Shown here in pieces: positions 8,995 to 64,000 of a stretch of DNA of 64,000 nucleotides; position 1 is the stretch's first letter; each line of letters begins with the position of its first letter. The DNA comes from Bacteroidales bacterium. Its GTDB lineage: Bacteria > Bacteroidota > Bacteroidia > Bacteroidales > UBA932. The DNA lies in the NCBI GenBank assembly GCA_015060245.1, contig SUYU01000012.1, positions 1 through 64,000 on the forward strand, written 5' to 3'. The position numbers and the translations under genes were made by a program. A model generated the notes under the pieces. It ran no database searches, was not told the DNA's origin, and worked only from the letters and a program-made list of their open reading frames with translations.

Positions 8995-9224
8995 TGAACC
9001 TGAATATTACTCAAGATAATTTATATCTGCTTCTCCCTTCCAAAATCAGTTGGTTGGCAATGTTGATGGTGGAGGATAAAGGGGTTTCTATAACTGAAGC
9101 TATAGAAACTCTTTATAAGTCTGACCTGTACAAGCAATTGGAGAAGGAAGAGACTAAATTGTGGCATTTGGGACCAGTTGCATTATATGAGTCCCTTTAT
9201 TCAAGTAAACTCCAGTGTAAATAA
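8991..9224 (+). CDS. small third protein of the DUF3791/DUF3990 cassette
   Basis: A 77-residue protein whose ATG overlaps the stop codon of the DUF3990 gene (ATGA), so the two are translationally coupled. It contains LLPSKISWLAMLMVEDKG, then SITEAIETLYKSDLYKQLE and WHLGPVALYESL. The helix pattern resembles DUF3791, so it may be a second, divergent antitoxin-like partner. The start could be 8994. I cannot assign a precise function. Confidence 0.65.
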   Translation: MMNLNITQDNLYLLLPSKISWLAMLMVEDKGVSITEAIETLYKSDLYKQLEKEETKLWHLGPVALYESLYSSKLQCK

Positions 9225-9299
9225 TATGATTAAAATCAGCAGAAAGTTTATTTTTGGGTTAGGTTAATATAATAAGATTTAATTATTGGAATGGCGAAG

Positions 9300-9342
9300 C
9301 CCCAATCCTGTTTCCAACAGGACTGCCCGACCCCAAATCCTG
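9300..9342. repeat. short direct repeat with inner hairpin
   Basis: CCCCAATCCTG (9300-9310) and CCCCAAATCCTG (9331-9342) are near-identical direct repeats. Between them CCTGT...ACAGG can form a small hairpin. They lie between the toxin cassette and the converging membrane-protein gene and may mark the cassette edge or act as a weak terminator. Confidence 0.35.
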
Positions 9343-9358
9343 AACTTTGTCAAGAATC

Positions 9359-9889
9359 TTACTCTCCCTTTCTTATTCTCCTGCTTACTTCCTTAAATTC
9401 CTTATGTGAAAGGTTTCTGTATGTCTCTACCCGTACACCCTTGCTTTCCAGTGTGGAAACAATTTCTGCGTAGTCATTTGGATCAACCATCAGTATACCC
9501 AAATAGAGACTGCCCCGTTTCTTCCCTTTTCTAACCATTTCAACCGCTTCAACACTCCAATTGCCAGGTGTCGGGAGCCAGAATCTTATACACCCCAATT
9601 CTTTATAATTCCTGCTGATTTTCAGAAATGGTAGGAGGTGATTCTGCACTGTTATTTTGTCATCTTCCAGAATAATGTAAAAGTACATGCCTATATATGA
9701 GTACCATACTGCAAGCATGAATATTGATATTAAACCCAGTGCAGCCCATGAAGCCCAGTCACCGCTCTGCAGGCATGGAAGCAAAATATACCTGCCGAAT
9801 ATGAAGAGTGAAAATATGAACACCAGCAATCCCGACAGTGTAGAGAAAGAGAATGTCTTTCTGAATGGCCTTTTGTAGAGTTTAATCAT
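9359..9889 (-). CDS. membrane protein with two transmembrane segments and a PH-like domain
   Basis: A 176-residue protein. Residues about 14-36 and 45-70 are hydrophobic and should form a hairpin of two membrane helices. The remainder is a soluble domain with alternating beta strands (EDDKITVQNHLLPFLKIS...) ending in a helix, similar in layout to the bacterial PH-domain proteins seen in short membrane proteins. No catalytic motif is visible and the function is unknown. A possible -7 element on the minus strand (complement of CAAAGTTA, 9925-9932) lies upstream. It converges with the toxin cassette. Confidence 0.7.
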   Translation of the reverse strand: MIKLYKRPFRKTFSFSTLSGLLVFIFSLFIFGRYILLPCLQSGDWASWAALGLISIFMLAVWYSYIGMYFYIILEDDKITVQNHLLPFLKISRNYKELGCIRFWLPTPGNWSVEAVEMVRKGKKRGSLYLGILMVDPNDYAEIVSTLESKGVRVETYRNLSHKEFKEVSRRIRKGE

Positions 9890-10008
9890 GTTAAGTGGGG
9901 TGTTGTTGGTTGTAAACTTGTAAACAAAGTTAGAAACTTTTTACCTACTTTGCATAAAATTTACAGACTCTACAGAATATATATTTACAAGAAAATACCG
10001 TTAAAATA

Positions 10009-10039
10009 TTTGTTCCCAATCTATTTTTGCTTACATTTG
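10009..10039 (+). promoter_or_regulatory. promoter of the GntR-regulated ABC operon
   Basis: TTTG (10009-10012), 19-nt spacer, TACATTTG (10032-10039): an exact Bacteroidetes consensus promoter. The predicted start of transcription falls inside the palindromic operator that begins 3 nt later. Confidence 0.85.
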
Positions 10040-10041
10040 CA

Positions 10042-10063
10042 GTGTACTACTATACTATTACAC
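10042..10063. promoter_or_regulatory. YtrA-type GntR operator
   Basis: GTGTACTACTATACTATTACAC is a 22-bp imperfect palindrome of the form GTGTAnTAnTATAnTAnTACAC. It sits immediately downstream of the -7 element and over the expected transcription start, so bound repressor would block initiation. The form matches known YtrA-subfamily operators (GTGTA...TACAC). The likely ligand is the GntR protein encoded by the third gene of this operon, giving autoregulation. Confidence 0.8.
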
Positions 10064-10107
10064 AGGTAGAGCGTTTGACTTCATTGAATCTTATTTAAAA
10101 TATTGTT

Positions 10108-10938
10108 ATGATTTCAATCAGGGATGCACAATTTTCATATGGCAGGCACAAGGTGTTTGACAATGTGAGTCTGCAGTTGGAGCAGGGGAAGATATATGGG
10201 TTATTGGGAGAGAATGGTGTAGGCAAGTCTACTCTGTTCAAGATTTTGTCGGGACTGTTAAGGTTGCATGGTGGAGAGTGTACAGTATGCTCAGAGGTGC
10301 CTTACAAAAGGAATCCTTCATTTTTAAGGGAGATTTATTATATTCCGGAGGACTTTGCAGGTGAGAATATTGAGGTGGGCAGATATGCTATGCAAATTGG
10401 TAAATTTTACCCAAATTTTTCTCCCGACAGACTCCAGTATATTCTCTCTGAGTTCGGTGTTGACCCGAATGCAAAGTTTACCAAATTGTCACACGGCCAG
10501 CAGAAGAAGGCAATTATAGCACTGGCATTGTCGCTCCGTACAAAAGTACTGCTTATGGACGAGCCGAGCAATGGACTTGACATACCCTCAAAGGCCCTTC
10601 TGAGACGGCTTATTGCTGAGAATGCATCTGATGACCAATTGATAATAATTTCTACACATCAGGTAAAGGATCTGGAGAATCTGATAGACCCGATCATAAT
10701 TATGGATAGGGAAGGGGTGCTCTTGAATGCTTCAATTGGGGAGATTGCAGAGAAACTCTCTTTTTCAGTTGAGCCAAAATATAATGACCGGGCACTCTAC
10801 TGCCAACAGGATTTGAGGGGGTATCTTACAGTAAAGCAGAATATTGACGGTGATGAGACTCCTGTAGACCTTGAGTTGCTGTTCAATTGCGCCTTGCAGA
10901 ACAAGGCATTGTTCAAGGAGATTTTCAATAAAAAATGA
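10108..10938 (+). CDS. ABC transporter ATP-binding protein
   Basis: A 276-residue ATPase subunit. Walker A is GENGVGKST, the Q-loop region follows, the signature is the variant LSHGQQKK, Walker B is VLLMDEPSNGLD, and the switch His lies in ISTHQ. The C-terminal 70 residues are an extra domain seen in YtrB-like exporters. Its partner permease begins 8 nt downstream and the regulator is third, so this is a three-gene YtrA-type operon. Members of this class respond to cell-wall stress in Firmicutes; the substrate here is unknown. Confidence 0.9.
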   Translation: MISIRDAQFSYGRHKVFDNVSLQLEQGKIYGLLGENGVGKSTLFKILSGLLRLHGGECTVCSEVPYKRNPSFLREIYYIPEDFAGENIEVGRYAMQIGKFYPNFSPDRLQYILSEFGVDPNAKFTKLSHGQQKKAIIALALSLRTKVLLMDEPSNGLDIPSKALLRRLIAENASDDQLIIISTHQVKDLENLIDPIIIMDREGVLLNASIGEIAEKLSFSVEPKYNDRALYCQQDLRGYLTVKQNIDGDETPVDLELLFNCALQNKALFKEIFNKK

Positions 10939-61506: not shown

Positions 61507-61578
61507 GGCCCTATAGTTCAAGGGATAGAACGAAAGTTTCCTAAACTTTAAATACAGGTTCGAGTCCTGTTGGGGCTA
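61507..61578 (+). tRNA. tRNA-Arg (anticodon CCT)
   Basis: A 72-nt cloverleaf. The acceptor GGCCCTA pairs with TGGGGCT (with G-T pairs), discriminator A. The D-arm is GTTC...GAAC. The anticodon stem AAAGT/ACTTT encloses TTCCTAA (anticodon CCT). The T-arm is ACAGG TTCGAGT CCTGT. The 3' part is read on the other strand as the last codons of a recombinase fragment, so this tRNA was used as an integration site. Confidence 0.93.
61541..61578. other. likely attachment site in the 3' half of tRNA-Arg
   Basis: The minus strand here encodes the final residues PTGLEPVFKV of the serine-recombinase fragment while the plus strand forms the tRNA T-arm and acceptor. This nesting is the usual sign that an integrated element uses the tRNA 3' end as its att core. 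Confidence 0.6.
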
Positions 61579-61583
61579 CTAAA

Positions 61584-61614
61584 GAGGACAAATCGCAAGA
61601 TTCGTCCTTTTTTT
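61584..61614 (+). terminator. terminator of tRNA-Arg(CCT)
   Basis: AGGACAAATC (61584-61593) and GATTCGTCCT (61599-61608) form a stem with one mismatch followed by a T7 run. Confidence 0.85.
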
Positions 61615-62028
61615 GTGTGTTTTCATTTTTATAAGTATTTGATACACTGAATATTAAATCAAAGAACAAATTTCCAAACTCGGTTAGATAAGCCCTATTT
61701 TCCTTATCCCATTTTACTCCATTAGGAAAGACCATTTTTTGTATCTTTTGACTGACTTCAAAGTCGCCCATATTCCAATAACTACTTAAATTACAAGCAA
61801 TTCTGATTGCATCCTCAATGTAAGACGCAAGGTTCGAAAGGTTCACAGAGATTTTTTCCAACTCTGCCTCCGTAGAGCGTTTTTCAGCCTCCAAATCGGC
61901 GATGGCACTGCTGTACGCATCTTCGTCCACTTTACCTATTGCGAAGTTCTTTTTAGCCGTTTTAATATAGGTATTGATAGTTGCCAAATGCTTCTTTACT
62001 GCATTGATGTCATCTTCCTGTGGAGTAG

Positions 62029-62303
62029 TTGAATTAGCCCACCAGCGAGGGCTAACGATGTCGGACATTGCCAAAAAGGTCGGCATCAGCCGTGTGAACT
62101 TATCGAATAGCCTCAACGGGAATCCAACCCTCTCTCGACTTACCGAGGTGGCGGAGATATTGGGCGTTGAGGTTTCGGAACTATTCAAGCCCACCTCGAC
62201 CCAAAAGGTTGTGAGCGGTTATTTGGAGTGTGATGGTCGCATCGTGAAGGTCGATAGCCTCGATGCGGTTAAGCGTTTTGTTGCCGAGGTTGAAGCAAAA
62301 TAA
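62029..62303 (+). pseudogene. 5'-truncated XRE-family HTH regulator
   Basis: About 90 codons encode ELAHQRGLTMSDIAKKVGISRVNLSNSLNG, a helix-turn-helix of the XRE family, followed by a short C-terminal domain ending VKRFVAEVEAK. The usual N-terminal start is missing; the reading frame runs back into the recombinase fragment. The internal ATG at about 62057 would leave an incomplete HTH. Base composition and codon choice (more CG) change here, marking a junction with different DNA. The ORF-track start at 61974 lies in the recombinase side. Confidence 0.65.
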
Positions 62304-62349: not shown

Positions 62350-63453
62350 CTACGCCTGCTTTTTATAGGTAAGGGCGGCGAGGGTGTTGAAGATGATGGC
62401 GAAGATGCCTAGGGCTGCGTAGTTTGTCCACAGTTCGGCAATGGTGGTTCCCTTCAAATATACCGAGCGCAGAATCTCTACATAGTACCGTGGCGGCAAT
62501 ATGAGCGTGAAGCGTTGCGCCCACACAGGCATTGAATCAATAGGCGTAAGCAGTCCACTCATCAACATAAAGGTCATAATAAAGAAGAACATAACAAACA
62601 TTGTCTGTTGCATTGTCTCCGAGAAATTGGCGATGGTCAGGCTGAAGCCCGAAATCGTAAGGATAAAGAGCAACGCTCCGAAATATATTGCTCCGATAGA
62701 GCCTACGGGTGCAAGGCCATAGACCAATCGAGCCACAAGCATCGCCACTGTCACGACAAACAATCCTATAATCCAATACGGCACAAGTTTCGAGAGGATA
62801 AACATAAAACGTGAGATAGGCGTTACATTTATCTGCTCAATAGTACCGCTCTCCTTCTCGCCCACGATACTCAACGCTGGCAGGAAACCGCAAATCAAGA
62901 TAAAGAGAATAATCATCAGCGCGGGAATCATATAGTGGCGGTAGTTGAGCGTGGGGTTATAGCGATTCTCAATAGTTACCAACTCCGACAACTTCGCAGG
63001 GCTCTTCTCGCCACGCAGTTCGGCCAAGGTGCGGGCTATGGTCTGCACGACATACTGCATTCCCATACCTCCCTTTGTAGCATTTACTGCATTGGCGGTT
63101 ATGCTGATGCGCTCGGGTGTGGCAACAGTCATATCGCGCTCAAAGTTGTCGGGTATCTGCACAATAACATCCACCGCACCCTGCTCCAAAGCATCAATAG
63201 CAAGCGGATACTCCGAGGTCGTCTGCGCCAATGTAAGATACTCCGATGCTTCGATATGAGAGGCGATACGGCGCGAGGTTGTCGAGCGGTCGAGGTCAAC
63301 AACCGCAACATTGACATTGCGGACATCCATAGTCATAATGAGCGGCATAAGCAACATCACAAGTATCGGGAAGGCGATGATTAGTCGCGGCAGAAACGAG
63401 TTGCGACGTATCTGCAAAAATTCCTTCTGAACAAGTACGATAAATGTTCTCAT
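62350..63453 (-). CDS. ABC-2 type export permease (YhhJ/YbhR-like)
   Basis: A 367-residue permease. One membrane helix at about residues 20-42 is followed by a long periplasmic domain, then five helices from about 180 on, with the family motif GEKESGTIEQINVTPI. This is the half-transporter type of multidrug or lipid exporters that work with HlyD and ATPase partners. The gene uses CGN arginine codons heavily, unlike the AGR-rich genes elsewhere in the window. It lies 2 nt after a paralogous permease gene. Confidence 0.88.
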   Translation of the reverse strand: MRTFIVLVQKEFLQIRRNSFLPRLIIAFPILVMLLMPLIMTMDVRNVNVAVVDLDRSTTSRRIASHIEASEYLTLAQTTSEYPLAIDALEQGAVDVIVQIPDNFERDMTVATPERISITANAVNATKGGMGMQYVVQTIARTLAELRGEKSPAKLSELVTIENRYNPTLNYRHYMIPALMIILFILICGFLPALSIVGEKESGTIEQINVTPISRFMFILSKLVPYWIIGLFVVTVAMLVARLVYGLAPVGSIGAIYFGALLFILTISGFSLTIANFSETMQQTMFVMFFFIMTFMLMSGLLTPIDSMPVWAQRFTLILPPRYYVEILRSVYLKGTTIAELWTNYAALGIFAIIFNTLAALTYKKQA

Positions 63454-63455
63454 AA

Positions 63456-64000
63456 TTACTCCAACTTATCGTTAAACTTTTTGAGTGATACGCCGAGAAT
63501 AACTACCGTCATACTGAGCAGAATCACGCAATTCTTCCATACAGCCACAAGCGGCAGGCCCTGAATCATCATCTTGCGCACCGCATCGATATACCACCTC
63601 GCAGGTACAATGTTTGACACCACCTGGAAAAATTTGGGCAGATTTTCAATCGGGAACAGCATACCCGACAGCATCAGGATAGGCATCATCATAACCATTG
63701 CCGAGATTAGCAGTGCTGCCATCTGCGTGGTGGCGATGGTCGAGACCAAAAGTCCGAGCGAGAGCGATAGCATAAGGTAGAGCAACGACAGCGAGAAGAT
63801 ACCCCCGACACCGCCCGTCATCGGCACTTCGAGGAGGTATCGTGCCAAAAGCAGTATAGTCACAAGCACGATACACGATATGGCGAAGTAGGGTATCATC
63901 TTGGCAAAGATAATCTTCACGGGACGCACGGGCGAAACCAGAAGCACCTCCATCGTGCCAACCTCCTTCTCGCGGACAATCGACACCGAGGTCATCATCG
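63456..64000 (-). CDS. second ABC-2 type export permease (partial)
   Basis: The C-terminal 180 or so residues of a paralogue; the start lies beyond the window. It contains REKEVGTMEVLLVSPVRP, the same family motif, followed by five membrane helices and MLFPIENLPKFFQVVSNIVPARWYIDAVR. Tandem permeases of this kind normally sit downstream of HlyD and ATPase genes, which should lie to the right. Composition matches the neighbouring permease. Confidence 0.88.
   Translation of the reverse strand, partial: MMTSVSIVREKEVGTMEVLLVSPVRPVKIIFAKMIPYFAISCIVLVTILLLARYLLEVPMTGGVGGIFSLSLLYLMLSLSLGLLVSTIATTQMAALLISAMVMMMPILMLSGMLFPIENLPKFFQVVSNIVPARWYIDAVRKMMIQGLPLVAVWKNCVILLSMTVVILGVSLKKFNDKLE

Follow-up and report, generated by a model that had tools for sequence, protein, structure and literature searches.

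Tyrosine integrases classically land in tRNA genes, and many serine recombinases of Bacteroidota end there too. The authors of Islander restricted tRNA islands to those with tyrosine integrases, serine integrases not being known at that time to target tRNA genes (PMC4383910, 2014). In the rumA-type serine integrases of streptococci, the 3' end of the integrase gene overlaps the target gene (PMC4701971). A large survey of serine recombinases leaves tRNA unmentioned in its text, and one step of its procedure discards attachment centres above 20 bp (Durrant et al., PMC10083194). No later paper describing an association between serine recombinases and tRNA genes was found in a literature search of incomplete coverage, and priority is not claimed.

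The window analysed here is the whole 64,000-bp stretch at positions 1-64000 of an 85,377-bp contig (C8) from a Bacteroidales draft genome, and the island that is the subject of this report (61580-69436, 7.86 kb) begins near its right end. Like the tRNA islands collected by Islander and TIGER, the island lies at the 3' end of a tRNA gene, has an integrase gene reading into that tRNA gene, and differs in content among relatives; unlike them, it has a serine recombinase, shows no duplicated tRNA 3' fragment that could be found, and has its right end deleted. The large serine recombinases of integrative elements (ICE/IME), namely TndX of Tn4451, the rumA-type integrases of streptococci and CcrAB, share with the family described here the Resolvase and Recombinase domains and a length of about 500 residues, and the rumA integrases also share the overlap of the integrase 3' end with the target gene. 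Unlike TndX, the rumA-type enzymes and CcrAB, the present group ends in many kinds of tRNA gene with its last 12-28 codons antisense, and it is represented in this genome only by fragments.

The joint between two truncated genes

The preliminary description of this DNA had placed an abrupt junction between a broken integrase and a broken regulator at about 62.03 kb and had noted that the integrase end is nested in tRNA-Arg. Both observations hold, and the position can be sharpened. The assembly does contain the joint, which falls between 62022 and 62023 according to the DNA of L084, a goat caecum contig of Alistipes RGIG1781 that carries the same operon and whose match to this contig begins exactly at 62023 (Table 1). 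To the left, the minus-strand recombinase C-terminus (61541-62022) reaches its stop codon at 61541, 39 bp inside the tRNA-Arg(CCT) gene; about two thirds of the protein is missing, since the alignment starts at approximately residue 359 of an intact relative of 497 residues. To the right, the fragment abuts the truncated XRE gene (62023-62303), whose protein is 89% identical to its intact L084 homologue from residue 5 onward.

The PF00239 (Resolvase) and PF07508 (Recombinase) domains are absent from the fragment, as they belong to the part that was lost, and are present in intact homologues of about 500 residues with matching C-termini. These homologues are serine recombinases, which rules out a tyrosine integrase. 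The remaining fragment cannot be active, and a search of the rest of this genome yielded no complete member of the family.

Table 1. Features at the island and its borders (contig positions; the window ends at 64000)
Feature	Position	Strand	Basis or remark
tRNA-Arg(CCT), intact; insertion site	61507..61579	+	ARAGORN; Rfam; identical site followed by helicase in relatives
Large serine recombinase, C-terminal fragment	61541..62022	-	terminal 39 bp in tRNA; intact homologues with PF00239 + PF07508
Recombinase C-terminal fragment fused to XRE gene (scar)	62022..62023	none	L084 homology starts at 62023
XRE (Cro/C1-type HTH) regulator gene, lacking about 5 first codons	62023..62303	+	HTH_3, 1.8e-8; L084 homologue
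ABC-2 type permease (YbhR/YbhS-like), final gene of export operon	62350..63453	-	97% identical to L060
Second ABC-2 permease	63456..64000, on to 64550	-	
Two ABC ATPases, HlyD, TolC and TetR genes	up to 68987	-	remainder of operon, beyond window
DUF6291 gene fragment	~69140-69430		beyond window
DEAD-box helicase, host	from 69437		beyond window

A variable interval between tRNA-Arg(CCT) and a helicase gene

In relatives from the same genus the gene order is fabH, tRNA-Arg(CCT), helicase. Alignments place the helicase stop codon about 40 bp from the tRNA end in one relative (G009), 80 bp in a second (G021) and 170 bp in a third (G007), whereas G016 and G022 have about 2.7 kb there, G010 3.2 kb and the genome studied here 7,857 bp. 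The inserts of G016, G022, G010 and the sister genome G012 differ from the island of this contig; in G012, whose flank is 94% identical, the helicase abuts an apparent glycosyltransferase. Comparison of these genomes marks the interval between the tRNA and the helicase as an insertion hot spot, which is filled exactly by the island.

A foreign segment here separates the tRNA gene from the flank that adjoins it in relatives, and the codon usage of the operon in that segment differs from that of the host. A direct repeat of the tRNA 3' end (attL/attR) was not found at the far end of the island, and for this reason we call it a decayed island and not an intact member of its class. The search for a second att copy, which had been suggested in the preliminary description, gave no match near 69.4 kb, nor any convincing copy within this island or in the elements of twelve relatives. 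The island is broken at its right end too; because the truncation lies inside a gene, the att mark may have been lost along with that end.

Sequence composition across the island edges

A switch of arginine codons from AGA/AGG to CGN at the joint had been reported from the window, and it is confirmed by counts that extend past the window end. The AGA/AGG share of arginine codons is 0.56-1.0 in host genes to the left of the joint and 0.47-1.0 in most of the flanking host genes, falls to 0.00-0.14 in the seven operon genes (62350-68987), and returns to 0.65, a host-type value, in the helicase at 69437. Host sequence resumes 5.4 kb past the end of the window, where the foreign stretch ends. Because codon usage flips at both island edges, the change at the joint marks where a foreign segment begins on the left, and that segment is bounded on the right as well.

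The window contains 30 copies of the octamer TGTCGGGA, where 1.13 would be expected. Its copies were said to stop to the right of the joint, and this is borne out, with no copies from 60434 to 70456, where the octamer reappears. The gap is a weak sign when taken alone, because host DNA elsewhere has stretches of 7-9 kb that lack the octamer, and its use as independent proof of foreignness was dropped on that account. Copies of TGTCGGGA are present on both strands, and one lies directly ahead of a start codon (60427).

The export operon and its relatives

The operon has the order TetR-TolC-HlyD-ABC-ABC-permease-permease, and all seven reading frames are open. The HlyD-type adaptor matches the PRK03598 model (3.6e-26). 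The YbhG-YbhFSR exporter of E. coli has a TetR regulator, CecR, and it shares with the island operon the TetR gene, the HlyD-type adaptor, two ABC ATPase units and two ABC-2 permeases, which are collected here in one operon; unlike in E. coli, the island encodes each ATPase in its own gene and also has a TolC-type gene. The operon presumably exports a toxic or antimicrobial compound, as judged from family membership only.

A scan of 84,980 genomes with permease 1 returned 108 relatives, the nearest being in Rikenellaceae and Alistipes, mostly from ruminant guts. The operon DNA is 91.5% identical over 6.7 kb to that of L060 (Rikenellaceae SIG178), with 96, 48 and 421 differences at first, second and third codon positions over 2,203 codons, a distribution as expected under purifying selection. 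In a third locus, L069, the operon lies among other genes near a tRNA-Glu gene. Since the neighbourhoods of L060 and L069 differ, the operon occurs in several contexts. Its neighbour in L060, the closest relative, is a large gene (9155-10456) that resembles mobilisation (relaxase-type) proteins when its sequence is read, with no Pfam match, so that the operon probably has other mobile carriers as well.

History of the joint

The gene order XRE-operon-DUF6291 is common to the island and L084. In L084, reading leftward in the orientation of the window, the intact XRE gene is followed by a WYL_2 gene, a gene for a small resolvase and the beginning of a large serine recombinase gene; on the other side of the operon the DUF6291 gene is intact. 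Homology to L084 ends at 62023, inside the XRE gene, and at 69419, inside the DUF6291 gene, and these stops within genes identify both edges as breaks. The recombinase N-terminus of L084 shares 60% identity with the recombinases of the genus mates G032 and G026, whose C-termini match the fragment at 61541-62022. Through these shared relatives the fragment and the L084 N-terminus can be assigned to one family; both also flank the XRE gene that the two loci have in common, with side and orientation agreeing. The genus mate G032 also has a neighbouring pair of a large serine recombinase and a small resolvase, at a tRNA-Leu gene.

These comparisons favour a decayed tRNA-Arg(CCT) island in which about 2.9 kb was deleted inside one element, a reading to which we give a probability of about 0.6. 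The ancestral layout would have been tRNA, large serine recombinase, small resolvase, WYL_2 protein, XRE, export operon and DUF6291 protein, integrated through that recombinase, with the recombinase 3' end antisense on the tRNA. A deletion would then have removed the N-terminal two thirds of the recombinase, the resolvase, the WYL_2 gene and the start of the XRE gene, thereby fusing the recombinase and XRE remnants at 62022/62023; its size of about 2.9 kb was estimated from the spacing in L084 and the recombinase length of 497 residues. A second loss, with its break at 69419-69437, would have taken the right attachment end together with the start of the DUF6291 gene, and the island would thereafter have been locked in place while the operon was retained by purifying selection. 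The kinship of the fragment with L084, on the same side and in the same orientation beside the XRE gene, makes a single deletion the simplest history.

The single-deletion reading is weakened by three observations. The C-terminus of the L084 recombinase and its tRNA context are absent from the L084 contig, where the gene is cut by the contig end; the G+C content is 37% in the fragment and 48% in the L084 N-terminus; and no displaced tRNA 3' fragment marks the right end. An alternative, which we regard as unlikely although it deserves consideration, is that two events took place: an old recombinase fossil was in decay at the tRNA-Arg gene, and a piece of another element, extending from the XRE start to the DUF6291 gene, was captured beside it later by illegitimate recombination from a donor of Rikenellaceae type. 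Such a history would accommodate the low G+C content of the fragment, which is unlike that of the operon (51%) as well as that of the L084 N-terminus, the fact that the donor piece breaks inside genes at both edges, and the occurrence in this genome and genus of another fossil of the recombinase, at tRNA-Met and 54% identical over its best part. However, the donor DNA would have had to land exactly at a remnant whose family partner adjoins the same XRE gene in L084.

The preliminary description had left a choice between a recombination scar at the end of a formerly integrated element and a chimeric contig joint. The first is supported by host synteny on both sides, by the empty sites of relatives and by the unbroken genes of L084. 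The second, a false join either at 62.02 kb or of the whole island, might be entertained given that the genome is a draft of 39 contigs and that the operon is nearly identical to that of gut bacteria likely to occur in the same kind of sample, but we consider it improbable. Host sequence of a single chromosomal locus stands on both sides of the island in the correct order and orientation, and a false join would have had to return by accident to the right neighbour, in the right orientation, 7.4 kb later, which is very unlikely. The island also fills exactly the interval that varies within the genus. Apart from the diverged fossil on contig C26, nothing else in the assembly repeats the flanks of the joint. 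They contain no long repeat: the recombinase remnant has no word in common with L084 that exceeds 11 bp, a length that would not mislead an assembler. That the island is real and the assembler only skipped the 2.9-kb stretch in a mixed population is more improbable still: strain mixtures can collapse in this way, but no bridging repeat was found at the joint and the right edge is independently truncated in a similar manner. The suspicious joint near the window edge is thus a natural scar, a matter settled by looking 5 kb further; as an ordinary deletion scar it is of low interest in itself, and the part worth following is the group of serine recombinases nested in tRNA genes.

Serine recombinases that end inside tRNA genes

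Relatives of the recombinase were gathered from Bacteroidota genomes with an N-terminal query that excludes the tRNA-encoded tail, which avoids bias toward that tail. The resulting set of 68 full-length proteins includes two genus-mate recombinases (L141, L142) that had been found earlier with the C-terminal fragment. Among the 68, 44 end inside a tRNA gene, all 44 in antisense orientation, where about 0.1 would be expected by chance. Nineteen anticodon types are covered, including those for Met, Arg (five anticodons), Leu, Ser, Ala, Pro, Asn, Val, Lys and Glu. The overlap with the tRNA is as short as 1-11 bp in three of the 44, not counting the two genus mates, where it is 10 bp. The fragment in the present genome has the same arrangement, the 3' end of its coding sequence being antisense in the tRNA over 39 bp.

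In a tree of the family the tRNA-nested members are scattered across most of the diversity sampled, and close relatives differ in the tRNA gene they use: L220 and L238, from a single genome, end at Arg(ACG) and Ser(TGA), respectively. We infer from these positions that the recombinases act at tRNA genes. More tentatively, a widespread Bacteroidota group may integrate at many kinds of tRNA gene and borrow its last 12-28 codons from the host tRNA; integration would then alter the C-terminal tail and could serve as a switch between integrated and free forms, a possibility that we hold as somewhat doubtful. If activity were confirmed, the group would supply integrases for a range of conserved integration sites in gut Bacteroidales; island finders limited to tyrosine integrases at tRNA genes would then be missing a class of islands.

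The recombinase was absent from viral contigs. The fragment used as query matched no plasmid, and an intact relative used as query against phages and plasmids retrieved only remote serine recombinases, mostly below 30% identity.

Several further occurrences of the family were recorded. Intact relatives include a recombinase of 530 residues at tRNA-Ala(CGC) in G259 and the one of 497 residues at tRNA-Leu in G026. A single-contig genome of 5.08 Mb (G482, contig C1) contains eight members (L240, L270-L276), several of them at different tRNA genes. On contig C26 of the present genome, a second and more decayed fossil of the recombinase C-terminus lies at a tRNA-Met gene (L006, 10291-10631), and similar recombinase fossils are found at tRNA-Met in genus mates. 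A GCACAA core had been proposed for the tRNA-Leu elements of G026 and G032 from a comparison of sister genomes in which a terminator hairpin appeared displaced; it was dropped as unproven when the hairpin and a 132-nt repeat were seen to recur in the cargo modules of relatives. These modules are arranged in tandem like cassettes downstream of tRNA-Leu(TAG) in L213 (1674-5087, genome G017) and also in L216, L177 and L179, each being about 0.9-1.5 kb long and ending in the 132-nt repeat and a CAGGCATCCG hairpin.
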